Made by a program: the position numbers and the translations under genes. Positions 18,276 through 64,000 of a stretch of DNA of 64,000 nucleotides are shown piece by piece. The notes beneath the pieces are model-generated. The model saw only the letters and a list, made by a program, of their open reading frames with translations. It did not search any database and was not told where the DNA came from. Numbering within the stretch: position 1 is the stretch's first letter; the number at the start of each line of letters is the position of its first letter. The stretch comes from Lunatimonas sp. Lineage in GTDB: Bacteria > Bacteroidota > Bacteroidia > Cytophagales > Cyclobacteriaceae. The stretch spans positions 1-64,000 of the forward strand of contig NZ_JAFIEU010000047.1 in assembly GCF_020832325.1 (NCBI RefSeq), given 5' to 3'.

Positions 18276-18289
18276 AACAAGGTACAATT

Positions 18290-20251: not shown

Positions 20252-20491
20252 ATTTCACAAATCATCAATACCACTTAAACGACCAGCTTCCGCAGGAATA
20301 AGAAACAATTCATGTACCAAACCGATCATTTAGGCACTATGAAGTGGATTTCAACGCCTACAAAAATTTAAAACTAGTTAAATTCACAGTTAAATGAAAC
20401 ATAAAACCCGTAAAAATGAGCTAGTTTAGAATAGAAGAACATCACTAAAGCATGAAATGATGCCAGAAAGATTTGGGAACAATTTCCAGAA

Positions 20492-21151: not shown

Positions 21152-21155
21152 TATA

Positions 21156-21557
21156 TTATTTTCTTACCCGTTCAATGTAGGTGATTTCAAATGGCCGAAT
21201 CGTAGCCGACCTACCATCCTCCTCTATCCTGTCTTCTGTAATTGAGTCGAACTCACTTCCAAAAAAACGTATAGGAAATTCATCCACCATGTAAGCAGCA
21301 GGAAAATTACATACACGCAAAACCGACAGATTCGAATCGCCGGGAAACCGCGCGACGACGAAAAACTCCATCCTTGTTTGATCATACCTTACCATTCCAT
21401 CTACCGAGTTCCAAGATCGTAGGGGTGCTTGATTATCAAAAACACCACATGAGCCTATACTCTCAAATTCCAATATATTGCTACAAGATGAAAGCAAAAT
21501 CAACCATCCAAAAAGAAAACCTGATTTCACGCTCCAATAACATGCTTTATCGCTCAT
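21156..21557 (-). CDS. Small putative lipoprotein
   Basis: A 133-residue product from the ATG at 21557; a TTG at 21578 would make it overlap the preceding gene by four bases. FGWLILLSSCSN is a good lipobox. The mature part is beta-rich with several cysteines (GSCGVF, RVCNFP) and no recognised family. It lies between the DUF2490 and barrel genes of the right cassette and has no counterpart in the left one. Confidence 0.6.
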   Translation of the reverse strand: MSDKACYWSVKSGFLFGWLILLSSCSNILEFESIGSCGVFDNQAPLRSWNSVDGMVRYDQTRMEFFVVARFPGDSNLSVLRVCNFPAAYMVDEFPIRFFGSEFDSITEDRIEEDGRSATIRPFEITYIERVRK

Positions 21558-21574
21558 AGTTAACAAATCTGATG

Positions 21575-22444: not shown

Positions 22445-22474
22445 AAAGATAATTGGTATTGATAAGGTTGGTTT

Positions 22475-47091: not shown

Positions 47092-47135
47092 TACAAATTT
47101 TATACACTTAATTTCTATACCGTTAAATTAATTTA

Positions 47136-48773
47136 TTATTCCGACAATCTGCCCCACCAAGGTCCCTCATCTCGAATATCCAACCACAATCGTTGCATCT
47201 GGGGAATCAAATGCAATAGTTGTTCTCGCTCCGAATGCGACAAATCTACTTGCTGGGCATGGTCCTGCTGGATATCAAATAGCTCAAACTCCACAGGAAC
47301 CGTCGTCTTTAGCCAATCCACGACAGGAAACGTTCCAGCCTCTGCTGGTAAATTTTCACTCATTCGTGGGGAAAACTTACCTACCAAAACATATTCCTCT
47401 ACCCTCATCGCCATCTGGGCCATCCCTGGCATATGGGAAGCATCTAGCAAGAAGAACCATGCCGCAGGAATTGGCCGCAAATACTCTCTACCCAAAAATG
47501 CATTGAATGCGTCCACTCCGTCTATATTTCGGTCTTCAGGTAGGGGTGATCCTGCCAACGCACACAGCGTCGGTAGAAAATCGGTGCCGTTAAATAGCTT
47601 GTCGCTTACTGTTCCTGCAGGAATTCGAGTGGGCCAACGCACAATTCCAGGGACACGGTGGCCTCCCTCGTACGGAAATCGCTTCATTCCACGAAGCGTG
47701 CCCGGACTGCCATAGCATTTATCACGCAATGGGTCCTCCCATGCTCCCTTTGATTCCTCAAAAGTAACGGGGTATTCCGGACCATTATCGCTGGTAAACA
47801 CCACAAGGGTATTTGCTGCCAAATCCTCCTCCTCTAAAAATTCCATCAATCTCCCAAACGTCGCGTCCAGTTGGGAAACAGTCCCATAATACTCCCGGAG
47901 GTTTTCCAAGTCTATTTGATCTGGACGTGTTACACCTCCATAATGACCTAGTGCTAGAACCTGTTCTTCGGTAAGATCAGGATACATCGCTTTAAAGCTC
48001 GCCGGCGGATCAATGGGTGTGTGCGGTTCGTGACTTGAAAGTACCATAAAAAACGGCTTAGAGTCATCCCGCTTATTGGAAATCCACTCCATGGCTTCAT
48101 CGGAAATGATATCAATATACCATCCTTCAAGAGCTCCAGTGGGCTGACCATTGCGGATAAATTTTTCCGGGTTTCTAGGCCCCGTCCCAAAGGCGTTTAC
48201 CGAGGTAGCCAGCGAATAATCGAACCCGGTTTCATTGACCGATAGCTCAGTTTCTGACTCTAAACGGGATAGGTGCCACTTGCCAAAGAAAGCTGTTTCA
48301 TATCCCACCTCCTTTAGCAGCTGTGGCAAAGTTACTTCTTCTCGCTGCAACGTGGTGCCAAAAAAACCAGCAATGTTGTAAAATCCACTACGATAAGGAT
48401 TCCTGCCAGTAAGTAGTGCAGCCCGGGCCGGTGAGCAAACGGTTGCAGCAGAGTGCATGTCCGTCATCCTCACCCCCTCTTGCGCAAACCTATCCAAATG
48501 GGGAGTTTTCATGATCGGATGTCCGTAACACCCCAAATCGCCATAACCCAAGTCGTCGACTAATACAATCAAAATATTGGGTCTATCTTCGTTGCTAGGC
48601 GCTGCGACTACCGCAATTGGAAATAGACAGGCGAACTGGGCGACTGCCCAGAAAAACCCTAGTATCCAACCTGCATGCAAGTCAGAAAGATCTGTTTGTG
48701 TCGCTCGGTTTGAAATTTCAGTGTTCACTGAGCAACCTTTTTTCTTGACGTACGACAATAGGTACGTAGCCAT
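47136..48773 (-). CDS. Exported type I sulfatase
   Basis: A formylglycine sulfatase of the alkaline-phosphatase superfamily (545 residues). The modified Cys113 lies in the consensus CSPARAALLTGR; metal ligands begin with DDLGYGDLG near 73-81 and continue with FTSDNGPE. The signal-like hydrophobic segment is about residues 36-58, so the protein is exported and needs a sulfatase-maturating enzyme. Two starts are possible: the ATG at 48773, which overlaps the upstream gene by 56 bases, or a GTG at 48728, overlapping its stop by 11 bases and giving 530 residues; I cannot choose. Being in a SusCD operon, it probably removes sulfate from a glycan or other sulfated ligand. Confidence 0.93.
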   Translation of the reverse strand: MATYLLSYVKKKGCSVNTEISNRATQTDLSDLHAGWILGFFWAVAQFACLFPIAVVAAPSNEDRPNILIVLVDDLGYGDLGCYGHPIMKTPHLDRFAQEGVRMTDMHSAATVCSPARAALLTGRNPYRSGFYNIAGFFGTTLQREEVTLPQLLKEVGYETAFFGKWHLSRLESETELSVNETGFDYSLATSVNAFGTGPRNPEKFIRNGQPTGALEGWYIDIISDEAMEWISNKRDDSKPFFMVLSSHEPHTPIDPPASFKAMYPDLTEEQVLALGHYGGVTRPDQIDLENLREYYGTVSQLDATFGRLMEFLEEEDLAANTLVVFTSDNGPEYPVTFEESKGAWEDPLRDKCYGSPGTLRGMKRFPYEGGHRVPGIVRWPTRIPAGTVSDKLFNGTDFLPTLCALAGSPLPEDRNIDGVDAFNAFLGREYLRPIPAAWFFLLDASHMPGMAQMAMRVEEYVLVGKFSPRMSENLPAEAGTFPVVDWLKTTVPVEFELFDIQQDHAQQVDLSHSEREQLLHLIPQMQRLWLDIRDEGPWWGRLSE

Positions 48774-50460
48774 ACTCCATACCTGCCGGCGGAGTTACGA
48801 TCAATGCCGGATCTATTGCTACGAGGCTTCCTGTTGAAGGAGGCGCCATATATTCCTGATCGATGCTCCAATACCGATGTAACTGCTCCACAAAAGCCTG
48901 AAGACGCTTTTTTTCCGCATCCGACCAACCCAAATGCTGAAAGGAAGGCTGATCCACAAAACGATACCATTTGTAGGTAACCATGGACCCATCTTTCAGT
49001 AGGGCAGTAAAGGCCTCCGATGCGGGACCTGGGCTTACCCAGCCTCCGGTACTCGGCGTGGAATACGGAGCCTCCTTTTCGATGATAAAGTTCCCCTTCA
49101 CTATTTCATTGCCATTTCGCCAGTTTATGTACTGTGCTTCGGTTTCCGCTCCGGGAAACTCCATCTGCGCCAAGGCTTTCGGTACTTCATCCAATCGAAC
49201 AGGTACCCGCTCGTTTCCATGCTGTTTAAAATACTGGGGGAAATGCCCCGCTTCGGCATAAGGATTATCCCTCCAGGCCAGCCCAAATGCATTGGAATCC
49301 GTGGTAATGGTCTCAAAAACCCCATCCAGATTGGTTAGGTCCTTTTGCGCATTTTCCTTAGCATCCCGTTGATCCAATTTGATGGGTCTAGGGCTAAGTG
49401 TTGGTTTCCATGCATGATTTTCATCGAATTTACCCGAGTAAGTCTTTCCGGATTTTTTCCACTCCAACAGGCAATTGAACAAAGCGTCTTTGGAGTAATA
49501 GGTCACATCCTGAACCAATACCGACCGGCCGTTTTCATCTAACGGAAATTGTAGACGGGGAATTTTAACGTATACTTCGCCATTTTCGTCCGTCCACTCA
49601 AATGACGGTACGGTATTGATTTCCATGGCACCTCCTCCACCCATGATGCCTTCGCGGGCATCCAGGCCCATGCCTTCAATGATTGGGTAATCCTTGGACA
49701 GACGACTCCACATTTCAGGAATATAAAATGCCACAGGACCTTTGAAGTTTTCAGCATTTAAAAAGAGCGTCCAACTGTGATCTCCCGTGGCCGGTGGTCC
49801 CGGTTTTGCCTCGGTAAGGGGCAGGGCCATATGGGTGTAGCCAAGGAACTTACCCTGAAGGTCTCCTTCAAAGGTGATTCCATCCGGTGGCACGAGTATC
49901 CGGCTGCTCAATTGGGCAATGCCCAACTGCTCTTCTGGCAATGCCTCTGCCCTATAAAAGAACGGCCATCCAGGAGACGCAATCTCTGAATTGTAACAAT
50001 CCGGCACACCGTTCATGCTGAACTTGGGGGAACCGTAATGGTACCGATTTCCTCTCCAATAACCCAGACCTCCCTCTTGTGTCTGAAACACACTGGACCA
50101 AGTGGGTCCTCTAGGGGCCCAAGTTCTGGCAATGGTCCCCTCGGGGCAGCAAGGAATATCTTTATTGTCCGGATTGTCCGGAGTAATCCAGTTCCCTGGT
50201 AATCCTATTTGAAATCCCGCTAGCGGCTTTTCCACTAATGGCCACACCGCCGTATAAAAACCAATGCCGGCACCAAATCCATCGGGGCGGCGGGGCGTTT
50301 GATATCCTATGTAGCCATGCAACCCATTACCTCCTTTGGATATTTCAGCGCTGCCGTCCACCATAGGCAATTCAGAGATGGAAAACCAACGCGCTGGCAG
50401 TATTACCGTCACGAATAACACGGATAAAATCAATACATATCTTGGAAAATCAAGCATCAT
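48718..50460 (-). CDS. Exported protein of unknown function in the SusCD operon
   Basis: A 580-residue protein from the ATG at 50460; the frame extends to 50526 but the signal segment PRYVLILSVLFVTVILPARW suits this start, and a second ATG follows directly. After the signal the protein is rich in Gly, Pro, Trp and Tyr, with HGYIGYQTPRRPDGFGAGIGF and several WAPRG-, YWRG- and FFYR-like beta segments. No catalytic signature or known family is recognised. The place in the operon, between SusD and sulfatase, suggests a glycan-binding or glycan-cleaving role (inference). Its stop overlaps either sulfatase start. Confidence 0.65.
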   Translation of the reverse strand: MMLDFPRYVLILSVLFVTVILPARWFSISELPMVDGSAEISKGGNGLHGYIGYQTPRRPDGFGAGIGFYTAVWPLVEKPLAGFQIGLPGNWITPDNPDNKDIPCCPEGTIARTWAPRGPTWSSVFQTQEGGLGYWRGNRYHYGSPKFSMNGVPDCYNSEIASPGWPFFYRAEALPEEQLGIAQLSSRILVPPDGITFEGDLQGKFLGYTHMALPLTEAKPGPPATGDHSWTLFLNAENFKGPVAFYIPEMWSRLSKDYPIIEGMGLDAREGIMGGGGAMEINTVPSFEWTDENGEVYVKIPRLQFPLDENGRSVLVQDVTYYSKDALFNCLLEWKKSGKTYSGKFDENHAWKPTLSPRPIKLDQRDAKENAQKDLTNLDGVFETITTDSNAFGLAWRDNPYAEAGHFPQYFKQHGNERVPVRLDEVPKALAQMEFPGAETEAQYINWRNGNEIVKGNFIIEKEAPYSTPSTGGWVSPGPASEAFTALLKDGSMVTYKWYRFVDQPSFQHLGWSDAEKKRLQAFVEQLHRYWSIDQEYMAPPSTGSLVAIDPALIVTPPAGMEYGYVPIVVRQEKRLLSEH

Positions 50461-50541
50461 AAGTCGGTCTTTTGATATAGAAATATACGGGTTTTGGGAT
50501 AATCCCAAAACCCGTATTGAACACACGACGGTATGTTTTTT

Positions 50542-52026
50542 TTAAAATACCCCTTCTCGGGTATCCCACCAAAGTTGCTTTCCATAGAAAATATCTACTT
50601 CAACAACCCGGTCGATTGGAAAATTTTCGTTGAACGCAATTTCATTCGCAGGATAAGCCATTTTAAATGGAGGACGGTTGTGGCTCATGGCATAGTCGTT
50701 GGTTACATTCACTAACTTTGGCACATCCGTCCTTCGGACCTCCGCCCAGGCCTCCACACTTTGCTTATAAAGGCTCAACCAATTTTGCATCCGGATTTTT
50801 TCCAGATTTGAATTAGTACCGGCGCCCCATGCGACTTCAGGTTCCAGTAGGTATGCGTTTGCAGCTTCGGTGGAAATGCCGTTTTCCTGCATGGAAACAC
50901 GTATTCCCTGCTCGTAGGCTTCCCGTGCGCTACCTCCAGATATCAACCCCCGCTCCAGTGCCTCTGCACGAATGAACCAAACTTGCGCTGCGTGCATGAA
51001 CGGTGAAAATCCCCTGTCATCGTAACCGAACCTGTTGCCGATATGGGATACATTTTGGTTGTTGTTTAGGGGAAAACCTGTCTGGCCAATGCCCATTCGG
51101 TATCCGTTGAAAAAACCATTCAGGTTGAGATCAGCGTAAACGGGTAGACGAGGGTCGTTTAGATCAGACATGGGCTGGATCAGGTCGTGGTTTGTGCGGT
51201 ATTGGTCCTGCTTATTCGTTGGCACCCCCAATCGGGCCCTCCAAGGCTCCAAGTTGTTGGTTGCAATACCTGGCCACCATAAATACGCGTTGTCGGCGTT
51301 GCTCTCAAAAATTGGATAAGCAGAAGGGTTCCCGAATATTTGGCCTAGCACCTGCGCTGCAGCAGCAGGTTCTACCAAAGACATGCGCATGGCAACCCGC
51401 AAACGGATGGAATTGGCAAATTTTCTCCATTTCATGATGTCTCCCCTATATAGGAAGTCCCCCTCTCCGATGGCCGGGCCGGATGCGCTTAGCAAACCTT
51501 GGGCTTCTTCCAATTCATTAAGAATATGGGTATATACCTCCTTGTGGGTGTCAAAGCGGGGATTTAGGATGTCATCGTCCTGTAGTCTAAATGCCTCCGA
51601 GTAGGGAATATCTCCCCACATATCGGACACCTGATGGGCGGTGTAGGCCTGCATAATCAGGGAAACAGCAGCAAGATTGGTATTGCCTTCCCTTAAGGCG
51701 TTTCTGCGCGCGTCAGCAAAATACGCCATCGCACGGTATAGGTTGTCCCACTGTCCATTGTTGATGTCCACCCTAAACTCATAATCTCCCGCGCCAATAG
51801 CAGCCAACTGTCCAGACCAAGTGCCGGCGTAATAGATACCGATCCGCTCTCCAAATAGTTGACCCGCCGTCACCGTCATGCCGGAGCCAAATATGGTGGT
51901 AGCCGGAACAACAGAGGGTTGGTTAGGATTGATGTTCATTTCTGTCCAACTATCCATACAGGATGTGGAGATCAATAAGGAGCAAAAGAAGAATGCTCGA
52001 ATGAAATTGTTTTTATAACTTCTCAT
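50542..52026 (-). CDS. SusD/RagB-family nutrient-binding lipoprotein
   Basis: Surface lipoprotein that caps the SusC channel and binds substrate. 494 residues; lipobox LLISTSC at Cys23. N-terminal NPNQPSVVPATTIFGSG and YAGTWSGQLAAIGAG match the SusD-like type 2 (PF12771-like) subfamily, which is common near peptide and other non-starch systems. TPR-like helical repeats follow. The gene begins 60 bases after SusC, and the downstream unknown begins 81 bases after its stop. Confidence 0.9.
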   Translation of the reverse strand: MRSYKNNFIRAFFFCSLLISTSCMDSWTEMNINPNQPSVVPATTIFGSGMTVTAGQLFGERIGIYYAGTWSGQLAAIGAGDYEFRVDINNGQWDNLYRAMAYFADARRNALREGNTNLAAVSLIMQAYTAHQVSDMWGDIPYSEAFRLQDDDILNPRFDTHKEVYTHILNELEEAQGLLSASGPAIGEGDFLYRGDIMKWRKFANSIRLRVAMRMSLVEPAAAAQVLGQIFGNPSAYPIFESNADNAYLWWPGIATNNLEPWRARLGVPTNKQDQYRTNHDLIQPMSDLNDPRLPVYADLNLNGFFNGYRMGIGQTGFPLNNNQNVSHIGNRFGYDDRGFSPFMHAAQVWFIRAEALERGLISGGSAREAYEQGIRVSMQENGISTEAANAYLLEPEVAWGAGTNSNLEKIRMQNWLSLYKQSVEAWAEVRRTDVPKLVNVTNDYAMSHNRPPFKMAYPANEIAFNENFPIDRVVEVDIFYGKQLWWDTREGVF

Positions 52027-52086
52027 AGTTAATTCATTTTAGATAGGCAAGATGTCTAAACCGTTTATGCTGAAAACATAAGCGAA

Positions 52087-55000
52087 TTAGAAATTCAGCC
52101 TGATGTTAAACCCGTAAGACCTGGTGGTAGGCGCCATGAAATTTTCAAATCCAGTACCTCGCTCTCCTCCACCCATCTGGGCAGCGGCCTCAGGATCCAG
52201 TCCCAATTCTTTTGCCTTCGCACTTCGGTGCAGGATGGCTAGGTTTCTACCAAATACAGAGAAGTTCATGTTTTGAAATTTCCATGCTCTAAGCGTGTAG
52301 CCAAAGGTTAACTCGCGAAGTTTTAAAAAGGAACCGTCGATGATAGAGTACTCGTGGTTATTCCATACCCAGGCGCCATTGTAATAGTCTTGGGCCGAAA
52401 TCCTTACGTCGTTTGGTGAACCGTCTCCTTTCACGCCTGGTACCACGATACCCTCTGCCCGAACGTTATTTTGTACCGTGTTCACAAATGCACCGGTCGG
52501 AAAGGAATGCCAGTAGGTCCCACTAAAGAAGTCCCCGCCCACACGGCCATCCAACAATGCTCCGAAAACGAAGTTTTTGTACGTAAAGGTGTTCTGCAAT
52601 CCACCTATCCAGTTTGGTGTGACGTTACCCAAAATCTCCTGCTGATTGGTAGTTGCGGGGGTACCATTGGGTGCAATAACAATATTGCCAGCATTGTCCC
52701 TGACAAAGGGCAATCCGCTAATATCACCCCATGGCTGTCCGGGTGTGCCCACCAATCGCGCACCGCCAAAACCGGGGCTTATGGTAATGTTGTCCAAGCC
52801 TTCGTAAAGTTCGGCTACCAAGCTTCTATTCCTTGCCCAGTTTACCGTACTATTCCAACTAAAACTGCCCTTTTGCATCACCAGTCCCCTCACAATCAAT
52901 TCTATACCGGTATTCTCAATCTTAGCTGCATTGATCAATTGGGAAGCAAAACCGGTAGAACGGGCAGTGGGAACATTCAAGATCATATCCTCTGTCACCT
53001 GCCGATAGTAAGTCGCATCGAATGAAAGTCGGTCGCTAAAGAACCTAAAATCGGCACCAACCTCAAATGAGGTAGTCATTTCCGGTCTCAAATTGGCCGG
53101 AGGCCGCACCGCCGGAGAATTAAAGAGCGCCACGTTGTTGAAAAGGGAAGTACTGTAGGTACCCATTAATTGATAGGGCTCCGTATCTGCACCCACTTGG
53201 GCCAAACTGGTTCTAAACTGCATGTAGTTAAAGTTCTTAGAACCAATATCAAACGCATCGGTCAAGCTGATGGACAGGTTGGCAGAAGGGTAAAAATAGG
53301 ATCTGTTGGCCTCGGGAAGTGTAGAGCTCCAATCATTTCGTGCTGTCACACCAAAAAAGAGGTAACCGTCATATCCCAACGTTGCTGAAGAGTAGATACT
53401 GTAGTTTTCTTTGCGGTAGTCGATCATGCCCACCCCGGGTGTACCCCGTACGTTTCCGATGTTAAATAAATCCGGCACGATCAAATCCGGCGCGCTAAGA
53501 AACATGCTGTTAAACTTGTTTAACCTGAAGTTACCACCTACCAGACCAATCAGATTGAGTTTACTATTCAAATCCTTATTTACATCCAGACGGATATCGG
53601 TGTTGAATTCCTGCCGGTTTTCATCCCACTGCGAAAACTGACCGCCTCTTCGGTTATTGATATTTGCCCGTGTTCGCGACAGCGTAATCAGCTTTCGCTC
53701 TTCGTTGTAATAATCCAGCCCTACAATGGTATTCGCTACCAACCAGTCGTTTATCTCATAGGCAGCCGTGATATTTCCGAAGAAACGTTCCCTGTTCAAC
53801 GAGTTGGTTTGATCCAAATCATAAAAGAAATTATTCACATTCAGGTTATATCCGCTACCCAATTCGTTTCCATGCTCTTCGTATACTTTTCTTACTTCAT
53901 CTAGCGGGATATGCCGAAACGCTCCCCAAGCCAAGCGAGTCATGGATCCGTAGGAAACCTCGGGAATGTTGTCACTCTTTCTATTTACATAGTTAAAGGT
54001 AGACCCAACTGTCAGCCTCTCGTGGGGATTCAGAGAGAAGTTTGCATTGAACGTATTAACGGTCTGATCTGTATTCAGGAATATACCCTGCATGGTTCTA
54101 TTAGAAAATGCTACGCGTCCATGCGCTTCTTTTCCACTAGCCGTTACAGCGACCTGATTGACGTGGTTCGTTCCAGTTTGGAAATAGTTGTTTCTAATAT
54201 TATTGGGATTCGAGACCCAAGGGCTATTTGGACCCTTAATCCACTGGTCGAGGAGCAATCCAGCGTCATAGCGAGGACCCCAAGAGGTTGCGTTTTCGTT
54301 CACCCCGCCACCAATGCCATTGACGTAGTTATAGCTAAACTGCTTGGCGTATTCGTTGTAGGAAAGATTGGATCCTGGGTTATTCTGCAGATACATCTGC
54401 CAGTCGTACTCTCCTCCCCGCTGACCTATACCGTACTCATTTTGGAAATTCATAAAAAACGCCGGCTGATCAAACACCATGGAAGAACTTACCTCTACAC
54501 CCAAGCCCTGTCGACCTTTGCTACCTTTTTTGGTCTCAATCAAGATTACCCCATTAGCTGCTCTGTTTCCGTACAATGCCGCTGCATTGGCTCCCTTAAG
54601 AACGGTCAGCGAGGCGATATTTTCCGGGTCTATATCGGCAATGGCATTTCCAAAATCACGGCCGCCGTTTCCGTCCAAATTACTACTGGTATTATCCATC
54701 GGTACGCCATCCACTACAAACAAAGGCTGGTTTCCCGCAAACGAAGCATTCCCCCTGATTACTATTCGAGTAGATGCACCGATTTGCGAACCACTCTGAC
54801 TGACCTGCACACCGGCGAGCTTCCCGCTAAGGGCATTCAAAAAATTATTGTCCTGGGTTGCCAAGAGATCATCCGCACCCAAAGCTTGTACCGTGTAGCC
54901 GAGTTCCTTTCTTTCCCGCTGCACACCTAGAGCTGTCACTACCACCTCATCCAAGCTTTTGGAGTCCTCCCGAAGGGTGACGCTAAAAACTGACTGAGAG

Positions 55001-55287
55001 CCAATTTCAATCGTTTGGGTTTCAAATCCAATAAAGGAAAAAGACAACCTGTCCGATCCCGCAGGCACTGTTAAATCGAATTGACCGTCAATATTCGTAA
55101 CCGTACCAACAGTAGAACCAACGGCCAAAACGGTAACTCCAGGCAATTTTACGTTTGACTGGTCTTGGACGGATCCACTGACCCGCCGCTGGGCAAATGC
55201 TTCCGGCACGAATCCGGAGATAAACAGCAGGAAAACCGCAAGGGCAACCAGGCTGCTTCGTTGTAAATGGGTAAATGTTGCTTTCAT
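52087..55287 (-). CDS. SusC/RagA-family TonB-linked outer-membrane channel
   Basis: A 1066-residue TonB-dependent transporter forming the pair with SusD. Signal peptide to about residue 32 (EAFAQ), carboxypeptidase-regulatory-like domain (GSVQDQSNVKLPGVTVLAVG), then the DEVVVTALGVQRE TonB-box region and a plug with LAGVQVSQSG, IRGNASF and the SusC signature LKGANAAALYGNRAANG. The C terminus YGFNIRLNF closes the barrel. First gene of the five-gene operon. The SusC/D family moves glycans, glycopeptides or peptides; here sulfatase and dehydrogenase companions hint at a sulfated ligand, but no classical glycosidase is in the operon. Confidence 0.95.
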   Translation of the reverse strand: MKATFTHLQRSSLVALAVFLLFISGFVPEAFAQRRVSGSVQDQSNVKLPGVTVLAVGSTVGTVTNIDGQFDLTVPAGSDRLSFSFIGFETQTIEIGSQSVFSVTLREDSKSLDEVVVTALGVQRERKELGYTVQALGADDLLATQDNNFLNALSGKLAGVQVSQSGSQIGASTRIVIRGNASFAGNQPLFVVDGVPMDNTSSNLDGNGGRDFGNAIADIDPENIASLTVLKGANAAALYGNRAANGVILIETKKGSKGRQGLGVEVSSSMVFDQPAFFMNFQNEYGIGQRGGEYDWQMYLQNNPGSNLSYNEYAKQFSYNYVNGIGGGVNENATSWGPRYDAGLLLDQWIKGPNSPWVSNPNNIRNNYFQTGTNHVNQVAVTASGKEAHGRVAFSNRTMQGIFLNTDQTVNTFNANFSLNPHERLTVGSTFNYVNRKSDNIPEVSYGSMTRLAWGAFRHIPLDEVRKVYEEHGNELGSGYNLNVNNFFYDLDQTNSLNRERFFGNITAAYEINDWLVANTIVGLDYYNEERKLITLSRTRANINNRRGGQFSQWDENRQEFNTDIRLDVNKDLNSKLNLIGLVGGNFRLNKFNSMFLSAPDLIVPDLFNIGNVRGTPGVGMIDYRKENYSIYSSATLGYDGYLFFGVTARNDWSSTLPEANRSYFYPSANLSISLTDAFDIGSKNFNYMQFRTSLAQVGADTEPYQLMGTYSTSLFNNVALFNSPAVRPPANLRPEMTTSFEVGADFRFFSDRLSFDATYYRQVTEDMILNVPTARSTGFASQLINAAKIENTGIELIVRGLVMQKGSFSWNSTVNWARNRSLVAELYEGLDNITISPGFGGARLVGTPGQPWGDISGLPFVRDNAGNIVIAPNGTPATTNQQEILGNVTPNWIGGLQNTFTYKNFVFGALLDGRVGGDFFSGTYWHSFPTGAFVNTVQNNVRAEGIVVPGVKGDGSPNDVRISAQDYYNGAWVWNNHEYSIIDGSFLKLRELTFGYTLRAWKFQNMNFSVFGRNLAILHRSAKAKELGLDPEAAAQMGGGERGTGFENFMAPTTRSYGFNIRLNF

Positions 55288-55629: not shown

Positions 55630-56799
55630 TTGTATGGTACTCGGATTACATTTCGAAAAAAACACATTACATTATACGGCAAACACATTCTATTTGTATT
55701 CAGTCCGTTGAAAACTCCGAGTGCATACCGTCTTTCCTTGGGTTTTGCGATTGCTTCCCTAGCATTCGCATTGTATTATTTTGCATCAGAAAATCTGCGG
55801 CCCGCGGGACCTTTTTTGATCACAGCACTGGCTTCTCTCTCTTTTGGGGTCAAAGGCTTTAAATGGTTTCGGGGGCTTTCCTTTACCCTATTGATTTTGG
55901 CGGTAGTTTCGGCTGCCCTTTTTTATCCCAAATTTTTCCTGACTATTGGAGATTTTGAAACGGCCGAATTGATCACGCCGCTGATTCAATTAATCATGTT
56001 CGGCATGGGAACGTCCATGGGGCTGGCAGATTTTCTGGCATTGATAAAATCCCCAAAAGCCGTGTTTATCGGTGTTGGATGCCAGTTTACTCTTATGCCC
56101 GGGCTGGCGTTTCTAATTGTGTCTCTTACTGGTTTTCCGGAAGAGATAGCCGCAGGGATCATCTTACTTGGCTGTGCCCCGACCTCGGTCGCCTCCCCCG
56201 TAATGTGTTACCTGGCTAAAGCAAACGTCGCCTTGACCATAACGATCGTCTCCATCTCCACCCTTATCGCACCCTTTATCATTCCTTTTTTGATGAAGTT
56301 TCTGGCGGAAGGATATATCGAAATCAACCCCATGGCCATGATGTGGAATATCATTCAGATTGTGTTGATCCCGATCGGCGCTGGACTATTTTTTAACAAG
56401 TTCCTTGCCGGAAAATCGGATTGGTTGGATAAGGCAATGCCTTACGTGTCCATGTTCGGGATTGTGTTGATTGTGGCAATCATCATGGCTGCGGGGCAGG
56501 AAAGTTTACTAAACATGGGCATGATGCTACTGCTCGCTGTCCTCGTTCACAATGTGCTGGGTTATGTAACCGGGTACTGGGCGGCCAAACTCTTCAAATT
56601 GGAAACACAGGACTGCCGCACCATCGCCATTACCACCGGCATGCAAAATGCAGGCTTGGTTTCGGGTATCGCCAAAACCATGGGGAAGATCGCCACCGTA
56701 GGGCTGGCATCGGCTGTCTGTGGCCCCTTGATGGGGTTCACCTCTTCGCTCCTAGCCTCCTATTGGAATACGGCCAAGGAAAACGACCGTGTGACCTAA
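55630..56799 (+). CDS. Bile acid:sodium symporter-family transporter
   Basis: A BASS/SBF-family secondary transporter (389 residues from 55630), using sodium to take up an organic anion. About ten membrane helices. Helix signatures include MFGMGTSMGLADF, PGLAFLIVSLTGFPEEIAAGIILLGCAPT and LAKANVALTI, with the sodium-site-like GCAPTSVASPVM. The start is uncertain: the first 26 residues (basic, not membrane) resemble no family member, and a TTG at 55708 gives LKTPSAYRLSLG, the usual N terminus. The gene converges on the M81 gene with 43 bases between. Confidence 0.9.
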   Translation: MYGTRITFRKKHITLYGKHILFVFSPLKTPSAYRLSLGFAIASLAFALYYFASENLRPAGPFLITALASLSFGVKGFKWFRGLSFTLLILAVVSAALFYPKFFLTIGDFETAELITPLIQLIMFGMGTSMGLADFLALIKSPKAVFIGVGCQFTLMPGLAFLIVSLTGFPEEIAAGIILLGCAPTSVASPVMCYLAKANVALTITIVSISTLIAPFIIPFLMKFLAEGYIEINPMAMMWNIIQIVLIPIGAGLFFNKFLAGKSDWLDKAMPYVSMFGIVLIVAIIMAAGQESLLNMGMMLLLAVLVHNVLGYVTGYWAAKLFKLETQDCRTIAITTGMQNAGLVSGIAKTMGKIATVGLASAVCGPLMGFTSSLLASYWNTAKENDRVT

Positions 56800-56842: not shown

Positions 56843-58321
56843 TCAACCAATTTGTTCGAAGGGAAACAAGGGCTTCCTTCGATTGGAGTAGCGTAAGCTG
56901 GACATGTCCGCGGTCGTTGCACCGGGGGTATTTACCCGAATCAAGTCTTTGCAAACACTCATATAGGCGGCCAAGGGTGCATGAACTCCTTTCGCTACGA
57001 TCACCTGGTAGCTGTTTGGATCCAAGCCAAAGGCCAAAAGCTGCTGTAAACTGAAGGGGACAATTCTCCGGGATGTCAGCATCAGCGTGTTGTTTTGTGT
57101 CGTTTGAACAATGGCCGTCAGTCCCATATCAAACGATACTTGCCCTCCATGCCTAGGTTCAAACTCAAAAAATTTCCCGTCAACCATCGCACCCAACTCC
57201 GCGGTAACAGCAACCGAGCTTCCATGCAGCCGATCGGTCTTGCCGCCAATCTCGACAGTCAAGCTATCGCCTACACGAACCCGGCTAAATTGATCCACTA
57301 CATTCGGATCGTAAATGCACATAAAACCCCGTCCAAAATCACTTTCTTCCAAAAAGGCCAACAGAAACGTGCTATCACCCGGAGAACCTCCGCCTACATT
57401 GTCGCCCATATCCAATAACAACAGTGGCTTTTCGGCCTTTTCGATCAAGGCCGGCAACTCAGGTAATCCGATCTTTTTGCCGGAAAACAGGTGATGATAG
57501 GTTTCTAAATAGGATTTCAACCTGCCTGCCAATCTAGCAGCTTCGGAGGGATTATGATCTGTAACGACGATGAAACTGCTTCCCATTTCCGCTACATCCG
57601 CATACGGAAATCCCAGCAAAACACTGACTGATAGAACGCTAGGCAAAGCTGCAACCTCATCCGCCAAACGATATAGCCCCAAACAGGGCTCTGAGGCTGT
57701 ATGTTGCATTTCGATGCTAATAGCTACTTGAGTTTGCAACGCAGTCATCACAGGCCTGATTTCGCCACGTAGCATACCCAGTAAAAGTAAAGCGGCGTCC
57801 CTACCCGTTTTTCGTTGGTCGATATGAGGGTTTGTTTTATAAGCAATCCAAGCATTTGCCGAAGCTGCCATTTCTTCACTCAAATTACAGTGAGGATCCA
57901 GCGTTCCCACAATAGGTATATCCTCACCGAGCAGCTCCCGCACCATGCGCAGCCATTTTCCATCGAAATCCGGATAATCCTCACTTACCGCTGCCCCATG
58001 GGGCAACACCATGAGCCCATCCAACGGACCGGCTTTTGCCAAAAGCTCCTTCAAATTTCCGAGTAATTTGCCGGAAGCCAAACTGGATATCTTCCCGCCA
58101 GGCGTGGCCTCTGCATAAAAAATGGGAATCATATCCACATCCGCTTGGTTGGACAATACCTCTACCACCCCTCCAATCTCATGATAGGCGGTTCGGTACT
58201 CATCAACGATTTCTTTACCTAGTAATAGATGCCCCTTTTCGAAATCTTCCCATTCCGTAGCAGTTTGCAAAAAGGTATTTGACTCGTGGTAAATACCCAA
58301 AATCCCAATTCGAAATATCAT
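56843..58321 (-). CDS. M81 family metallopeptidase (MlrC-like)
   Basis: Relative of MlrC, which finishes degradation of linear microcystin fragments; most relatives act on unknown small peptides or amides. 492 residues, no signal, so cytoplasmic. The N-terminal metal site is GIYHESNTF (His12, Glu13) and later GTLDPHCNLS (Asp142, His144). MGDNVGGGSPGDST is the C-terminal conserved segment. Last gene of the leftward run, 62 bases after the RraA gene. In this company it may cut an unusual amide taken up by the cell. Confidence 0.9.
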   Translation of the reverse strand: MIFRIGILGIYHESNTFLQTATEWEDFEKGHLLLGKEIVDEYRTAYHEIGGVVEVLSNQADVDMIPIFYAEATPGGKISSLASGKLLGNLKELLAKAGPLDGLMVLPHGAAVSEDYPDFDGKWLRMVRELLGEDIPIVGTLDPHCNLSEEMAASANAWIAYKTNPHIDQRKTGRDAALLLLGMLRGEIRPVMTALQTQVAISIEMQHTASEPCLGLYRLADEVAALPSVLSVSVLLGFPYADVAEMGSSFIVVTDHNPSEAARLAGRLKSYLETYHHLFSGKKIGLPELPALIEKAEKPLLLLDMGDNVGGGSPGDSTFLLAFLEESDFGRGFMCIYDPNVVDQFSRVRVGDSLTVEIGGKTDRLHGSSVAVTAELGAMVDGKFFEFEPRHGGQVSFDMGLTAIVQTTQNNTLMLTSRRIVPFSLQQLLAFGLDPNSYQVIVAKGVHAPLAAYMSVCKDLIRVNTPGATTADMSSLRYSNRRKPLFPFEQIG

Positions 58322-58383: not shown

Positions 58384-59034
58384 CTATAGAACGCCGTATT
58401 TTTTGTATACATCGCCCGCTTTCGCGCCTTTTTTGATTTCGTCTCTGCTTACATTTTCTGCGTTTACTTTTTCCATCGCCATCTGAATGGCTTCCTGCTC
58501 GATTTCCTGCGGCACGACCACGATACCGTCTTCGTCGCAAAACACCAAGTCACCCGGTGAAAACACTACCGTCCCAATCTTTACCTGCACATCAATCTTA
58601 ATTACCATCTGCCGGTTCTTGCTGTCATAGATATTGGTTCCCTTAGCCCTTACGGGAAATCCAAGGTCTCTCATCTTAGCCAGGTCTCTCACCTGTCCGT
58701 CCACAATGGCTCCTACACAACCTCTATTCAGTGCTGCCGTAGATAGTAGCTCTCCCCAAATGCCCGACCGCTGGGAACCACCTGCTGCGGCAATCAAGAC
58801 ATCCCCGGGCATACAGGTATCCACCGCCTGAAGTTCCAACTCATACGGCGCGGGGTCCTCGTGAAAGATGTCCGCCCAAAGTGTGGTCTTGCACCTTCCC
58901 ACGATATTTCCGGACACCGTAGTGATCGGTAAGTGGACATTGGGAGACTGATTTCTATAGCCAAGACTATCAAGTGCGTCCGAAATAACCGCAGCATATA
59001 ATTGGGTAGAGATTTCTTCAATGGTATAAGTCAT
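58384..59034 (-). CDS. RraA-family protein
   Basis: A 216-residue member of the RraA/HMG aldolase family. IVDGQVRDLAKM carries the family's G-x-x-R-D active-site segment and a conserved Arg; YELELQAVDTCMPGDVLI and VVFSPGDLVFCDEDGIVVVP are the structural cores. Many members decarboxylate oxaloacetate or cleave 4-hydroxy-4-methyl-2-oxoglutarate, a pyruvate-type aldolase role; others only inhibit RNase E. The setting in a catabolic run favours the enzyme. 62 bases before M81 and 95 after the Tat-exported unknown. Confidence 0.9.
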   Translation of the reverse strand: MTYTIEEISTQLYAAVISDALDSLGYRNQSPNVHLPITTVSGNIVGRCKTTLWADIFHEDPAPYELELQAVDTCMPGDVLIAAAGGSQRSGIWGELLSTAALNRGCVGAIVDGQVRDLAKMRDLGFPVRAKGTNIYDSKNRQMVIKIDVQVKIGTVVFSPGDLVFCDEDGIVVVPQEIEQEAIQMAMEKVNAENVSRDEIKKGAKAGDVYKKYGVL

Positions 59035-59129: not shown

Positions 59130-60500
59130 CTATTTAAACCTATCCGGAATGATAAATTCGTAGCCCTTTGGCGGCCAAGGACCGATGCTCTGTCCAGTGG
59201 GCCTCGGTGCCGTGGGGCGTATTGGCTCGTGATCCGCTACCGAATAGGTGATGGCCAGGTGCGGTGTGTCTCTTGTCTTTCCGTCATCCAGTACGAGCGA
59301 CCGAATGGCTGCATCCATTATCCCACTTGTCATCAAGGTACGTTCTACGGGTGCGGTGGGCTTGCCACTCAGAAAAAACTTCTGAATATTCAGTGTCAAG
59401 TAGCTGAAATGAGAATAGCTCATGCTGTGGTCCAGAACAAACTCCGTGGCAACCGTCTTGCCATTTTCCAAAGCTGCATAGCCCCAACCGGAATTCACAT
59501 ACCCCGTGAGCATCATAATGGCTCCTTTCGTCCCATCCTTGTACCGAATGATCACTGCATGGGGATCTTTTTCGAGTTCCCGCATATTTCCCTCGTGCTT
59601 ATTCCGGATCGCATTGCATCCCGCTTCTACCAAATCAAGGGATATCTCACCCGAATCTACCGCATTCCACACTTCGGCCCCACGAATACCCCGGACACTC
59701 TGAACCCCGGTCTCTCCTCCCCTTCTACGCTCTACCATGCATTGAAGTATCTCTGCCACATGAAATCCATAAGCATCCAAAGAGGCATAGCCAATGGCAA
59801 CCGCCTCCGTTATGCGTGCGCCCAATGGATGCTCCAGGGCTGGATCCCTCCAGGCGAAGGGCAACGAAGAACCAGCCATCATCGGAACGTTCAGCTCCCG
59901 TCCACGATCATATATCCACTTGCTATCCAGCCAGCTATACGCCAAGTGCTTGTCGGTAAATAAAGGCACCGATCGATTGGACGCATCGAATACCCGGAAT
60001 ATCTGATCCAGGTAATTCATGCGCGGGTACATCTTCACCCCTAATCGGCTATTCGGGTACTCTCCGTGTTCCCCAATGTATATCACGGCATCCACCGCCA
60101 ACGTATTCCCGCCGAGGGTTAACGCTTCTGCAATTGTAGGGAAGACGGTCGCCCCGTTCATCGCCGCAATGCGGACACCGGTGTCGTTTTCTCCCATCTG
60201 ATCAATCCAAACCGAAACAATCTGAATCTCCGGAGTGACCATACCTTCATCCATGGGTATTCCTGCAAATATCTTCGTAGCAATCACGTCAGCATGTGCA
60301 CTGTTTCGATAAATATTAGCGATTAGCGCGATCTTTTTCTTGGCCTGATTGGGCTGCTGCATCCATGATTCCAGGGATAAAGCGAAGCCGCTCCCTGATA
60401 GGGCTAAAAAGGATGTTCCAAGTGCGGACTTTTTGATGAAATTTCTTCGTTGGTACGGATTGGGTTTTCGCATGTTAAATGTGTTGTTTTTTGTGGTCAT
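59130..60500 (-). CDS. Tat-exported protein of unknown function
   Basis: A 456-residue protein with a Tat signal (QRRNFIKKSALGTSF near 17-31, then hydrophobic LALSGSGFAL). The mature part starts like a Rossmann protein (KKKIALIANIYRNSAHADVIATKIF), then LGGNTLAVDAVIYIGEHGEYP, MAGSSLPFAWR and LQCMVERRRGGETGVQS. I recall such sequences only as unassigned conserved proteins, mainly in planctomycetes and Bacteroidota, and the shape suggests a distant Gfo/Idh/MocA-type enzyme. No function is assigned. A second ATG at 60473 would keep the signal. Fourth gene of the run, 61 bases after GGT. Confidence 0.7.
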   Translation of the reverse strand: MTTKNNTFNMRKPNPYQRRNFIKKSALGTSFLALSGSGFALSLESWMQQPNQAKKKIALIANIYRNSAHADVIATKIFAGIPMDEGMVTPEIQIVSVWIDQMGENDTGVRIAAMNGATVFPTIAEALTLGGNTLAVDAVIYIGEHGEYPNSRLGVKMYPRMNYLDQIFRVFDASNRSVPLFTDKHLAYSWLDSKWIYDRGRELNVPMMAGSSLPFAWRDPALEHPLGARITEAVAIGYASLDAYGFHVAEILQCMVERRRGGETGVQSVRGIRGAEVWNAVDSGEISLDLVEAGCNAIRNKHEGNMRELEKDPHAVIIRYKDGTKGAIMMLTGYVNSGWGYAALENGKTVATEFVLDHSMSYSHFSYLTLNIQKFFLSGKPTAPVERTLMTSGIMDAAIRSLVLDDGKTRDTPHLAITYSVADHEPIRPTAPRPTGQSIGPWPPKGYEFIIPDRFK

Positions 60501-60561: not shown

Positions 60562-62355
60562 CTACCAGCCCACCGCATATCCATTCCTTCTGGGATCAGC
60601 ACCTCCCATTAGCCATCCCGTCACCGGGTCTAGGGTGATTCCCTGGGCACCACCGACTGTCATGGACCAAGGACCCAAACTCGTATCCAACTGAAAGCCC
60701 ATTTTTCGCAAATCGCTTAGCGCCTGCTCGCCCACACGGGTCTCAACGATCGCTTCGGTGGCTGGAACCGAACCTAGTTCATCCTTCCAACGAAAACGAG
60801 GTGCGCTAATGGCATCTTGGATATTCATGCCGAAGTCAATGTGGTTCATGGCGACCTGTGGCACGGACTGCAGGATGCCGAAACTGCCCGGTGATCCCAC
60901 GATCAACTCCGGTCGTCCATTCTTGTGAAACTGCATCATTCCTCCTACACACCAGCCTACGGCCTTGCCCGGCGCTACGCTATTGGCCAATCCCGGTTCC
61001 TTGGACATCCAATCCAATGCACTGTTAAAGATTAGTCCCGTCTTTCCGGCGATGTAGCCGGACCCAAAGCCTCCCCCGTGAGTCTGTATGATTACCGCTG
61101 CATTCCCCCATTGATCAACTACGGACAGGCTGGTGGTGGCATATTGATAGGACGCAGAAATTTGGCCGTCAAAGGTAGTTCTAGGAAGTGTCTCCTCGGA
61201 TGCAGTTTCTGCGGCTTTTATGCGTTGCTTCACCCGCTGCCGGACCAGCTCCCGTTGCATATCCAAATAGCCATCCGATAACAGGAAGTCCACCGGCACG
61301 TCCACGAAATCTGGATCTCCGATGTATTTGTCCGTATCCATTCGGCATAGAAAGATAGTTTCCAATAGATGCGCAAGGTACTCGCTGCTGTTATGCCCCA
61401 TTTTCTGTACATCAAAGCCCTCCATGATCTTGAGCGTCTGAAGCTGTTGGATGCCCATCCCAGGTGGGGGATTGTTATACACGGTATAGCCTTTGTAAGT
61501 AATACGAATAGGATCTACCCAGTTGACCTTTTCCGGAACCTTAGCCAAGTCCTCTGCGGTCAAAAATCCACCGTCTGCTAGGAAGGCAGCTTCAATCTCC
61601 TTTGCCAGTTCACCTTTGTAAAAGTAATCAGCGCCTTTTTCGGCAATCTGACCCATTGTTTTTGCAAGAGGTTTGTTGGTGAAGAAGTCCCCTATCCGAT
61701 ACGGGGACTGATCGTCCTTTAGTAAGATTTTCACCGATTCCCGATGAGGAAGCACGCGCTGTAGGGTGCCTTCCCACATGGCCTGGTCAAATTCCGTGAT
61801 AGGGACCCCTTCTTCCAGGTACTTGATCGCTGGGGCGAAGACCTGACCCAACGTCATGGTTCCATAGTCCGTCAATGCGCGATCCCAGCCTGCTAGGTTA
61901 CCCGGCACCGCAACGATTTTTGGACCCACCGTTTCCAGCGCGCCATGTCCCGCTCCGTCATCGGCCATCTTCGCTTCCCGAAGTCTTTCTGGATCAAAGG
62001 TCTCCGGAACCCACCCCCCAAACACCAAGGATCGGGTTCTATTTTCCCTTGCGTCGTAGTACAACAAATACCCAACACCCGCTACCCCTGACATGTACGG
62101 CTCCACGGCATTTAGGGCAGCAGCCGCAGCTACTATGGCATCCATGGCGTTGCCTCCATGGATCAACATCTCCTGTCCGGCCAAAGTAGCCAACGGATTG
62201 GCGGTCGCAACCATTCCCCGCTTACCCATAGCGGCGGGGCGGAGGTTTTCTTTGGCAACTTGGGCGTTTACCTTTGAAATCAGCAAAACACTCACTATCG
62301 TAAGAGATATAAGGAAAGTCCTTTTGGGTAAAAAGGTTGTGATCGGGTGACTCAT
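60562..62355 (-). CDS. ggt: Gamma-glutamyltransferase
   Basis: Hydrolyses or transfers the gamma-glutamyl group of glutathione and gamma-glutamyl amides in the periplasm. 597 residues, signal peptide FLISLTIVSVLLISKVNAQ. Self-processing would occur before Thr407 in TTSLSVVD; the usual sequence is TTHxSVVD, so the residue two places after the nucleophile (Ser409) differs from His. Arg103 in DARENR matches the Arg that binds the glutamyl carboxylate. Oxyanion-type GSPGSFG follows. Length and order of motifs are complete. Divided by 203 bases from the exported PLP-enzyme gene. Confidence 0.93.
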   Translation of the reverse strand: MSHPITTFLPKRTFLISLTIVSVLLISKVNAQVAKENLRPAAMGKRGMVATANPLATLAGQEMLIHGGNAMDAIVAAAAALNAVEPYMSGVAGVGYLLYYDARENRTRSLVFGGWVPETFDPERLREAKMADDGAGHGALETVGPKIVAVPGNLAGWDRALTDYGTMTLGQVFAPAIKYLEEGVPITEFDQAMWEGTLQRVLPHRESVKILLKDDQSPYRIGDFFTNKPLAKTMGQIAEKGADYFYKGELAKEIEAAFLADGGFLTAEDLAKVPEKVNWVDPIRITYKGYTVYNNPPPGMGIQQLQTLKIMEGFDVQKMGHNSSEYLAHLLETIFLCRMDTDKYIGDPDFVDVPVDFLLSDGYLDMQRELVRQRVKQRIKAAETASEETLPRTTFDGQISASYQYATTSLSVVDQWGNAAVIIQTHGGGFGSGYIAGKTGLIFNSALDWMSKEPGLANSVAPGKAVGWCVGGMMQFHKNGRPELIVGSPGSFGILQSVPQVAMNHIDFGMNIQDAISAPRFRWKDELGSVPATEAIVETRVGEQALSDLRKMGFQLDTSLGPWSMTVGGAQGITLDPVTGWLMGGADPRRNGYAVGW

Positions 62356-62558: not shown

Positions 62559-63785
62559 CTAAATAACTGCTTTGAGTAGGGTATCTCTAAGCTTTTTGGC
62601 GACTATCTTTTCTTCACCGTTCTGCAACATAAAGACTCCAATCCGGATATAATCTTCACTTTCCCATGAAATGGTCTCTATAGAGGGAGTGCCAATTCGC
62701 ATTTTTTCTCCCAAAAGTTTACCTGTAAGGTTGAATTTATCCTTTTCCCAAGAAATTTTGAGTGTGGGGTTTTCGTTCGCAATCTCGGGCACGAAAGTCT
62801 CCGTCACAATTCCAGGAATGTCTCCGACGGCGTTGGCGATATGGGAAACCTTTTTTTCCCAGGTAGCCCAAGTTTTAGAATGGTCCCGATTTATAAATGT
62901 CTCTAAGGCCACATACATTCCCAGAATTTCCTCCTTATTCACCTTATTGCCTCTACCAATATTTCCTCCCCTAGGTGGTGCATTTAGCCTGGCTGCATCT
63001 ATTAGATCCTTTTTTCCCATGAGTATCCCTGCACTCTGTGGTCCACAGAGTGCTTTTCCTCCGGAAATTGCCACTAGGTCATATCCCATTTCGTTGTACT
63101 TCCATAAATTCTCCACTGGAGGAACATCTGCTGCAATATCGTTCATGGTAGGTATGTGGTGTTTTTTTGCTACCTCTAACCACTCTGAGTGCTTTATCAA
63201 ACCTTGAGGTTCTTCTCTATTTAGAAACCACATCATAGCCGTTTGATCATTTATTGATTCCTCCAATTGTTCTCGTGTTTCGATCAGGACCAACGTGGCT
63301 CCAGTATTGGTAAGTGCGTGATGATACCCATTTGCATGAGATTTTTGGAGAATGATCTCAGACTTCATGCCGCTTCCTTGCAAAAAAGGAAGCAACGCAG
63401 CTTTTTTAGAATCCTTTCCAGTTAAAACACCGGCAGTTCCCAAAACCAACGCAGACCAACAGCCTGCGGTGACCATCGCTGCTTCCGACCGGCATAAAGA
63501 AGCTATTTTTTCACCTACCGCATCCTGCACATCATCTAACATGACGTAATATTTGGAGGATTCATTGATGGTTTCCATTACCTCGGCGGGCATCAGCGAC
63601 GCAGTCATGGTGGTATAATTCCCTGCTGCATTGATAAACGTTCGTAGTCCCAACTCTTTAATAAGGTTTCGGGCCGGGATGACAGAGGCTGTTGCTTTTT
63701 CCGGCAGCAAAAAGCTACCTCCAAATACCCCTCCCAATAAGGGAAGGGCCGAGATTTTCTTTAACAGTTTTCTTCTTGAAATCAT
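62559..63785 (-). CDS. Exported SelA-like PLP-dependent enzyme
   Basis: A 408-residue fold-type I PLP protein like the SelA/DgaE group (D-glucosaminate-6-phosphate ammonia-lyase, selenocysteine synthase). The presumed Schiff-base lysine is in AISGGKALCGPQSAG; the cofactor aspartate lies in TMNDIAADV. The N terminus is a Tat-like signal (ISRRKLLKKISALPLLGGVFGGSFLLP, Arg-Arg at 4-5), so the enzyme would be folded with cofactor and then exported, which is rare for PLP enzymes. It is 11 bases after the hydrolase-type gene. A beta-elimination on an amino-sugar or amino acid in the periplasm is inferred, not shown. Confidence 0.85.
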   Translation of the reverse strand: MISRRKLLKKISALPLLGGVFGGSFLLPEKATASVIPARNLIKELGLRTFINAAGNYTTMTASLMPAEVMETINESSKYYVMLDDVQDAVGEKIASLCRSEAAMVTAGCWSALVLGTAGVLTGKDSKKAALLPFLQGSGMKSEIILQKSHANGYHHALTNTGATLVLIETREQLEESINDQTAMMWFLNREEPQGLIKHSEWLEVAKKHHIPTMNDIAADVPPVENLWKYNEMGYDLVAISGGKALCGPQSAGILMGKKDLIDAARLNAPPRGGNIGRGNKVNKEEILGMYVALETFINRDHSKTWATWEKKVSHIANAVGDIPGIVTETFVPEIANENPTLKISWEKDKFNLTGKLLGEKMRIGTPSIETISWESEDYIRIGVFMLQNGEEKIVAKKLRDTLLKAVI

Positions 63786-63796
63786 TGGATGTAGAT

Positions 63797-64000
63797 TTAA
63801 AAACCTTTGACAATAGGAAGTACGATATGACTCGGAGTGGCTCCACCATGCCTGACGGTTTGTTTGGCAATTCTTATTTCGGCATCACTTCCCAAAGGTT
63901 TTCCGGTGTTAGGATTGCGATCAAACTGCGGAAAATTACTGGATGTAATATCTATTCGAATTCGATGTCCGGGCAGAAAGACATTTGCTGTACCCATCAT
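63797..64000 (-). CDS. CocE/NonD-family hydrolase, C-terminal end (partial)
   Basis: The gene runs off the right edge of the window; only 67 C-terminal residues are present. NVFLPGHRIRIDITSSNFPQFDRNPNTG is the jelly-roll segment that ends CocE/NonD hydrolases (X-prolyl dipeptidyl peptidase, cocaine esterase, glutaryl-7-ACA acylase). The active site is outside the window, so the substrate is unknown. It is upstream in the same transcription unit as the PLP enzyme (11-base gap). Confidence 0.85.
   Translation of the reverse strand: MMGTANVFLPGHRIRIDITSSNFPQFDRNPNTGKPLGSDAEIRIAKQTVRHGGATPSHIVLPIVKGF

Follow-up and report, generated by a model that had tools for sequence, protein, structure and literature searches.

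A SelA/DgaE-like PLP enzyme with a conserved Tat-type signal in Lunatimonas sp., a putative exported amino-acid or amino-sugar lyase

Main finding

The window, the whole stretch of 64,000 nucleotides from Lunatimonas sp. analysed here, carries at 62559–63785 (minus strand) the gene of a fold-type I PLP enzyme of the SelA/DgaE group that begins with a Tat-type signal. We incline slightly towards a reading in which this protein would be a Tat-exported lyase from an exported sister clade of DgaE/DGL, working alongside partner hydrolases and Rid proteins. The sequences themselves show the fold and PLP site, a conserved signal, the leaders on the partners of its relatives and the loss of the arginines associated with phosphate in DGL. 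Cells synthesise PLP and insert it into proteins in the cytoplasm, PLP enzymes of this kind normally work inside cells, and PLP lyases yield reactive enamines. A clade that exports such an enzyme in folded form, often together with an exported RidA, would place deamination chemistry outside the metabolic pool of the cell.

Family and fold of the PLP protein

The reading frame opens with ATG, encodes 408 residues and has exactly the limits given in the original prediction. The protein scored above the cut-offs of the Pfam families Aminotran_5 and SelA, and its best NCBIfam models were those of the DgaE group, TIGR01437 (E 5.9e-44) and NF047797 (E 1.1e-36); the scores reached, 150.4 and 126.6 bits, are far below the curated scores of both models (cut-off 385.3 for TIGR01437), which places the protein outside DgaE/DGL proper. 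The SelA model TIGR00474, with its cut-off at 267.9, gave just 29.3 bits (E 3.9e-07), and judged by these models the protein is much nearer to DgaE/DGL than to true SelA. An AlphaFold2 model built from 60 sequences showed a mean pLDDT of 90.7, residues 12–35 being the sole long stretch below 50. VIA-align superimposed this model on Cap15 (PDB 8t7j), which shares its fold, with Z 39.4 and an rmsd of 2.0 over 350 residues, and on DGL (7lc0; also 7lce) with Z 38.1 and an rmsd of 2.5 over 352 residues at 24% identity. SelA ranked well below (Z 26.1), and this ranking together with the TIGR00474 score rules out true SelA as the identity of the protein; the two share a superfamily and differ in the Tat-type leader of the window protein.

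Threonine aldolases came next below SelA (Z 23–25). The fold-type I scaffold that they have in common with the window protein, and the existence of PLP racemases outside the cytoplasm, would allow for an exported enzyme that acts on hydroxy-amino acids as an aldolase, racemase or epimerase; we consider this quite unlikely, since these fits are far weaker than those of DGL and Cap15 (38–39) and RidA, found in 19 of 36 related loci, is not evidently needed by a racemase or an aldolase.

The N-terminal signal

The Tat-type signal peptide spans residues 1–33 (63687–63785, minus strand). The N-terminus (MISRRKLLKKISALPLLGGVFGGSFLLPEKATASV) begins MISRRKLLKK, with the twin arginine at residues 4–5, and the ATA at residues 31–33 forms an AxA site at which cleavage would be expected. 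The Tat consensus is (S/T)RRx-hydrophobic-hydrophobic-K close to the start, and the SRRKLLK of the window protein has this form. The hydrophobic segment that the original prediction saw behind SRRKLLKK is there as well, as a weakly hydrophobic core with a best 10-residue Kyte-Doolittle mean of 1.87; such a core, like the AxA site, is a feature of Tat substrates. The same low hydrophobicity is seen across the Tat-type PLP members, with a mean core value of 1.76 versus 2.83 and 3.09 for their Sec-type partners.

A twin arginine lies near the start in 61 of 63 locus records. Removal of three duplicates left the 60 rows, window protein included, of alignment A1, where R4 and R5 are both Arg in 58; the two rows that lack the pair (L019 and L028) have leaderless starts and an identity of about 29%. 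Seven further members from a sample of the phylum (L077–L083) also carry it. Within the first 30 residues the strict Tat motif was found in 57 of 66 members, and a looser pattern in 65, compared with none in the 24,418 positions of the mature parts of the same proteins. This zero count and the conservation rule out a chance twin-arginine motif. The genome also encodes a Tat translocase (TatC, 210.1 bits; one TatA/B/E match, 73.9 bits).

The conserved motif, the Tat genes, the separate low-confidence leader in the model and the exported-type partners in related loci support Tat export well, and the PLP enzyme is very probably exported by this route, as had been predicted from the first residues. 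On the other side, the NCBIfam Tat model TIGR01409 stays below its cut-off for the window protein (12.9 versus 16.7 bits), and the location itself is a prediction. That score, and an AxA at residues 19–45 in 44 of the 66 members only, would suit a cytoplasmic enzyme whose twin arginine is fortuitous or part of a membrane anchor. Such an enzyme is very improbable given the pair conserved in 58 of 60 rows and missing from mature parts, the leaderless starts of the rhizobial and DgaE rows examined, and the leaders on partners in 23 of 36 loci, those of RidA being Sec-type, lipoprotein-like (3 of 22) or, in Granulicella, Tat-type.

The cofactor site

The predicted PLP lysine, K244 (codon at 63054–63056, minus strand), is Lys in all 60 rows of A1, and the cofactor aspartate, D216 (63138–63140, minus strand), is kept in 59. 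H150 is conserved in 56 of the 60 rows, R278 and K281 in 59 each, and K284 in 57. K244 aligns with position K213 of the DGL chain and with K230 of Cap15; the PLP lysine of DGL is named Lys-217 in the text of PMC9529869. Because the K230A mutant of Cap15 is described as retaining activity (PMC6411801), the PLP lysine of that enzyme should not be named by alignment alone. The same source describes alanine mutants of Cap15 K262 and K265 without detectable activity, and these two residues align with K281 and K284, the equivalents of which are conserved in DGL also. The fold and the PLP site are almost certainly as assigned. Thus the earlier description of a SelA-like protein with complete lysine and aspartate sites was right as to both residues and the superfamily, with DgaE/DGL as the nearer models.

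The replacement of other DGL residues, described below, could fit a PLP-binding relative that is inert or regulatory and is exported without any turnover. We find this barely credible: K244, D216, R278, K281 and K284 are kept in 57–60 of 60 rows, and the four paralogues in the genome and the placing of the gene in an operon argue for use.

The substrate pocket

In DGL the docked phosphate lies near Arg301, Arg332 and Arg346, the carboxylate lies near Arg226, and His163 is given as the proton donor (PMC9529869). At the columns of the three phosphate arginines the window protein has T341, I372 and F385. These arginines are missing altogether from 63 of the 66 Tat rows, and the other three rows retain one; all three arginines are present in DGL, two DgaE rows and Cap15, two of the three in Rhizobium, Ensifer, Martelella and Paraburkholderia, and none in two haloarchaeal rows. 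The site for the 6-phosphate of the DGL substrate is therefore gone in 63 of 66 Tat rows, and this loss suggests that the substrate of the Tat clade is probably non-phosphorylated, as expected outside the cytoplasm. The His162/His163 pair of DGL is likewise absent from the window protein, being replaced by E-E in the MAFFT alignment and by R190-E191 in the profile alignment; among the 66 Tat rows, one His stands at these columns in three and both in none. An elimination would consequently need a different proton donor. The window protein has Lys at position 258, a column with Lys in 39 and Arg in 16 of 60 rows. With the phosphate arginines and the His pair gone, a DGL acting on the same substrate was ruled out.

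On two haloarchaeal plasmids (L107 and L112), leaderless relatives that also lack the DGL arginines and the His pair have heparinase II/III and polysaccharide lyase 8 genes as neighbours, which hints at polymers of amino sugars.

The fit to Cap15, a PLP/O2-dependent monooxygenase-decarboxylase, opens a different reading, an exported O2-using enzyme (oxygenase-decarboxylase or oxidative deaminase) like Cap15 and PvdN, with export supplying O2 and extracellular substrate. In fold, Cap15 and DGL match the window protein about equally well (Z 39.4 and rmsd 2.0 versus 38.1 and 2.5), the essential K262 and K265 of Cap15 (PMC6411801) correspond to K281 and K284, and PvdN is described as a periplasmic, O2-using PLP enzyme. 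However, the presence of both lysines in DGL means that they do not point to O2, and Cap15 retains the arginine triad lost in the Tat clade. In the tree it groups with DGL outside that clade (on a long branch), and the deacetylase, RidA and aldolase neighbours of the relatives match an elimination better. O2 use is in our judgement unlikely, and a lyase remains the preferred reading.

The operon in the window

Followed past the window edge, the gene order is SusC-like TonB receptor, SusD, CocE-type hydrolase, PLP enzyme, gamma-glutamyltransferase (GGT), Gfo/Idh-fold protein, RraA and MlrC. The CocE/NonD (S15-type) hydrolase, whose 3' end lies at 63797–64000 (minus strand; TIGR00976, 485.8 bits, cut-off 66.3), has 613 residues and a hydrophobic stretch close to its start; its gene extends beyond the window and is 11 bases from the PLP gene, with the SusD (PF12771) and SusC-like receptor (plug domain PF07715) genes upstream. 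The GGT gene (60562–62355, minus strand; PF01019, 366 bits; TIGR00066 over its cut-off) follows the PLP gene after about 200 bases and encodes a Sec-type start, as do all members of its cluster by the Sec rule (13 of 13). The protein at 59130–60500 (minus strand) has the Tat-type start QRRNFIKK and no Pfam or NCBIfam family over cut-off; its AlphaFold2 model (mean pLDDT 73) has a Gfo/Idh-like fold, matching GenD2, inositol dehydrogenases and glucose-fructose oxidoreductase with E of about 1e-14 to 1e-12 and TMq of about 0.5, and its counterparts are found in 16 of 36 loci. Beyond it lie an RraA-like protein of the aldolase/decarboxylase family in which no leader was seen (58384–59034, minus strand; PF03737, 120 bits) and an M81/MlrC-like metallopeptidase, leaderless by rule (56843–58321, minus strand; PF07364 and PF07171). 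An SBF/PanS-like transporter (55630–56799, plus strand; above the cut-off of PF01758, below those of TIGR00841 and NF047939) is convergent to the operon, and its cluster recurs in 18 of 36 loci.

Neither a deacetylase nor a RidA is found in this operon, where the amine could be freed by GGT or by the CocE-type hydrolase. Sulfatases (family checked in three) occur in six of the 36 loci, all of them without deacetylase, so that the subclade of the window protein may serve sulfated material.

Gene neighbourhoods in relatives

The 36 loci compared comprise the contig of the window, the three loci of its paralogues and 32 from other genomes; several are near-copies, so that the counts are not independent, some stretches are short, and the names of the neighbour clusters rest on one or two members each. 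A deacetylase lies near the PLP gene in 23 loci and a RidA in 19, each time alongside the deacetylase; neither is found within the stretch compared in 13, that of the window and 12 others, four of which are stretches of less than 11 kb. The deacetylase is an NF006689-type amidohydrolase (452 and 433 bits for the two members scanned, cut-off 371). By the Sec rule all 37 deacetylases and all 22 RidAs have Sec-type starts; internal-Met controls passed in 1 of 442 and 2 of 39 cases, and the rule is lenient, passing 68 of 156 reading frames outside the clusters, some of which are probably exported. The RidAs have in common a near-invariant stretch, HAR.A.G..SLP, which presumably holds the catalytic arginine. 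Other neighbours are a GSDH-cytochrome c, CBM9 and SMP-30 (nine loci each, partly different ones), an exported RraA-like protein (four), SusC-like (17) and SusD-like (16) proteins and GGT (13).

Directly 3' of the PLP gene in five loci lies a further protein of 574–606 residues with a Tat-type start (L032:9376-11100, L033:9326-11125, L034:1625-3445, L035:9353-11107 and one in L065); two members scanned gave no family over cut-off, and the best solved structure in a profile search had E 0.21.

Leadered and leaderless sets of these genes are also found in other phyla. A plasmid of Granulicella tundricola carries in a row RraA, PLP enzyme, RidA, a long PLP paralogue, deacetylase and lactonase, with twin-arginine starts on the PLP enzyme (TRRRFLG), RidA (SRRGLLK), the long paralogue (SRREVLK) and the lactonase (TRRSIL). 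Its deacetylase passes the Sec rule, and its RraA fails it despite a hydrophobic start. The leader of RidA is thus Sec-type in Bacteroidota and Tat-type in Granulicella. The PLP enzyme and RidA are leaderless in Rhizobium, Paraburkholderia and Martelella, the last with a deacetylase gene nearby that is cut by the end of the stretch. In Bartonella, a leaderless DgaE and a leaderless deacetylase occur with an aldolase, the adjoining genes being annotated as amidohydrolase/deacetylase and KDGP aldolase; in these neighbours Bartonella DgaE resembles the loci of the Tat clade.

Distribution and phylogeny

The genome of the window holds four members (the window protein and one each on contigs C46, C3 and C43) with 100, 74, 63 and 31% identity, and matches were found in 16 of 59 genomes of relatives, this one included. 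Two genomes of the same genus (G001 and G002) have protein sequences identical to those in records of Lunatimonas salinarum and L. lonarensis, in agreement with the genus of the window. Among 392 Bacteroidota genomes 286 had some match at E 0.001 and just nine, again including this one, had matches below 1e-70, the next best being 2e-13. Of 21 weak loci taken from this set, one (L084) showed a frame of unrelated sequence; the remaining 20 resemble class V desulfurases by eye and lack a twin-arginine motif within the frame's first 60 residues.

An IQ-TREE tree of 80 rows (66 Tat and 14 other) places all 66 Tat rows on a single starred side (96/93), together with two long-branched leaderless sinorhizobial rows, Sinorhizobium terangae and S. 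numidicum, which adjoin the long Tat paralogues at a point flagged by the program as a meeting of long branches. The main Tat clade (61 rows, 100/98) consists of Bacteroidota except for a single Granulicella (Acidobacteriota) and an Emcibacteraceae bacterium. Outside the Tat side are DGL and Cap15, the DgaE rows of Bartonella and Lacticaseibacillus, the rhizobial group and the two haloarchaeal rows; the Martelella row, with RR at residues 21–22 and no leader, was counted among the non-Tat rows. The Tat label changes twice on the tree versus 13.2 times in shuffles, a comparison in which near-copies make labels look clustered, as the program warns. The long paralogues, of about 530–550 residues and with a Tat-type start, form a clade of their own (G000:C43:138023, seen as L004/L067; L027, L030, L031 and L105:7689-9287).

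Comparison with known systems

DGL shares the fold, the PLP lysine and the aspartate with the window protein, but its chain and the DgaE rows are leaderless. PvdN, which is exported via Tat, is the precedent here, since exported PLP enzymes are already known. It is a fold-type I PLP enzyme like the window protein and lies outside the cytoplasm, a likeness drawn from its description, PvdN being absent among the matches listed in both fold comparisons (best 50 each). It is described as a periplasmic enzyme of Pseudomonas that modifies pyoverdine using O2 (PMC7497351, PMC6411801). Cap15 is described as acting in an antibiotic pathway.

A parallel in logic is the ong pathway of Pseudoalteromonas prydzensis, in which the deacetylase OngB, the PLP deaminase OngC and the RidA OngD act on N-acetylglucosaminic acid that has not first been phosphorylated, each being needed for growth on this compound (PMC9537276). 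The loci of the Tat clade combine the same deacetylase, PLP deaminase and RidA. OngB and OngC are predicted to be cytoplasmic (PMC9537276), in contrast to the leaders on the PLP enzymes and deacetylases of the Tat clade. Among the matches listed from open-licence PMC texts, no paper was found on an exported DgaE/SelA-like enzyme or on a RidA exported with it.

Proposed mechanism

The kinship to DGL and the deacetylase, RidA and aldolase neighbours of the relatives make an amino-acid or amino-sugar lyase the most likely activity, and an enzyme of the ammonia-lyase type is rather probable. The periplasmic lyase of the original prediction is supported in part; against it stand the replaced pocket residues, the equally close Cap15 and an operon that holds neither deacetylase nor RidA. 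The argument is weakest at the deacetylase/RidA module, which is carried over from paralogues and relatives.

In the scheme that we favour, the PLP enzyme would fold and take up its cofactor in the cytoplasm before Tat export. A hydrolase cleaving an amide would first free the amine. In many relatives the Sec-exported deacetylase would do this, in the window operon probably GGT, the CocE-type hydrolase or both. Outside the inner membrane, water and ammonia would then be eliminated from a non-phosphorylated 2-amino-3-hydroxy acid, for example an amino-sugar acid, to give a 2-keto acid, and an exported RidA, where present, would hydrolyse the released enamine or imine. The keto acid would be taken up by the SBF transporter and split by a pyruvate-forming aldolase, of the RraA type in the window operon. 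What we infer here is that the protein is exported, that it acts as a lyase, which substrate it takes and in what order these steps follow.

More tentatively, and with a probability that we put as rather low, Bacteroidota and some Acidobacteriota might run a complete phosphorylation-free degradation of amino sugars (or amino acids) outside the cytoplasm. It would lead from a GSDH-like cytochrome-c dehydrogenase over an SMP-30 or seven-bladed lactonase, a Sec-exported deacetylase and the Tat-exported PLP ammonia-lyase to exported RidA and an exported RraA-type aldolase, ending with keto-acid uptake by the SBF carrier. Such a route would correspond, in exported form, to the cytoplasmic Dga and Ong routes, and reactive enamines would arise and be cleared in the periplasm. 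The clade offers a direct way to test why Bacteroidota use Tat for such an enzyme, and where RidA acts. The plasmid records examined mostly label the class 'aminotransferase class V-fold PLP-dependent enzyme'; it would fall into two parts, phosphate-sugar lyases without a leader and an exported clade whose substrate pocket differs.

Other genes in the window

Elsewhere in the window, a further protein with a Tat-type start (DRRHFIK) is a Gfo/Idh/MocA oxidoreductase at 5626–6993 (plus strand), and a Zeta-toxin-like AAA protein (PF06414) lies at 8980–9555 (minus strand). Two tandem gene pairs, similar by eye, occupy 17448–24475 (minus strand) and encode proteins of 653 and 279 and of 666 and 289 residues, the 666-residue protein having no Pfam match. 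A cytochrome c/DUF6797 protein, a sulfatase and a 602-residue protein without family are encoded at 44341–50526 (minus strand), adjoining a second SusC/SusD-like pair at 50542–55287, by eye.
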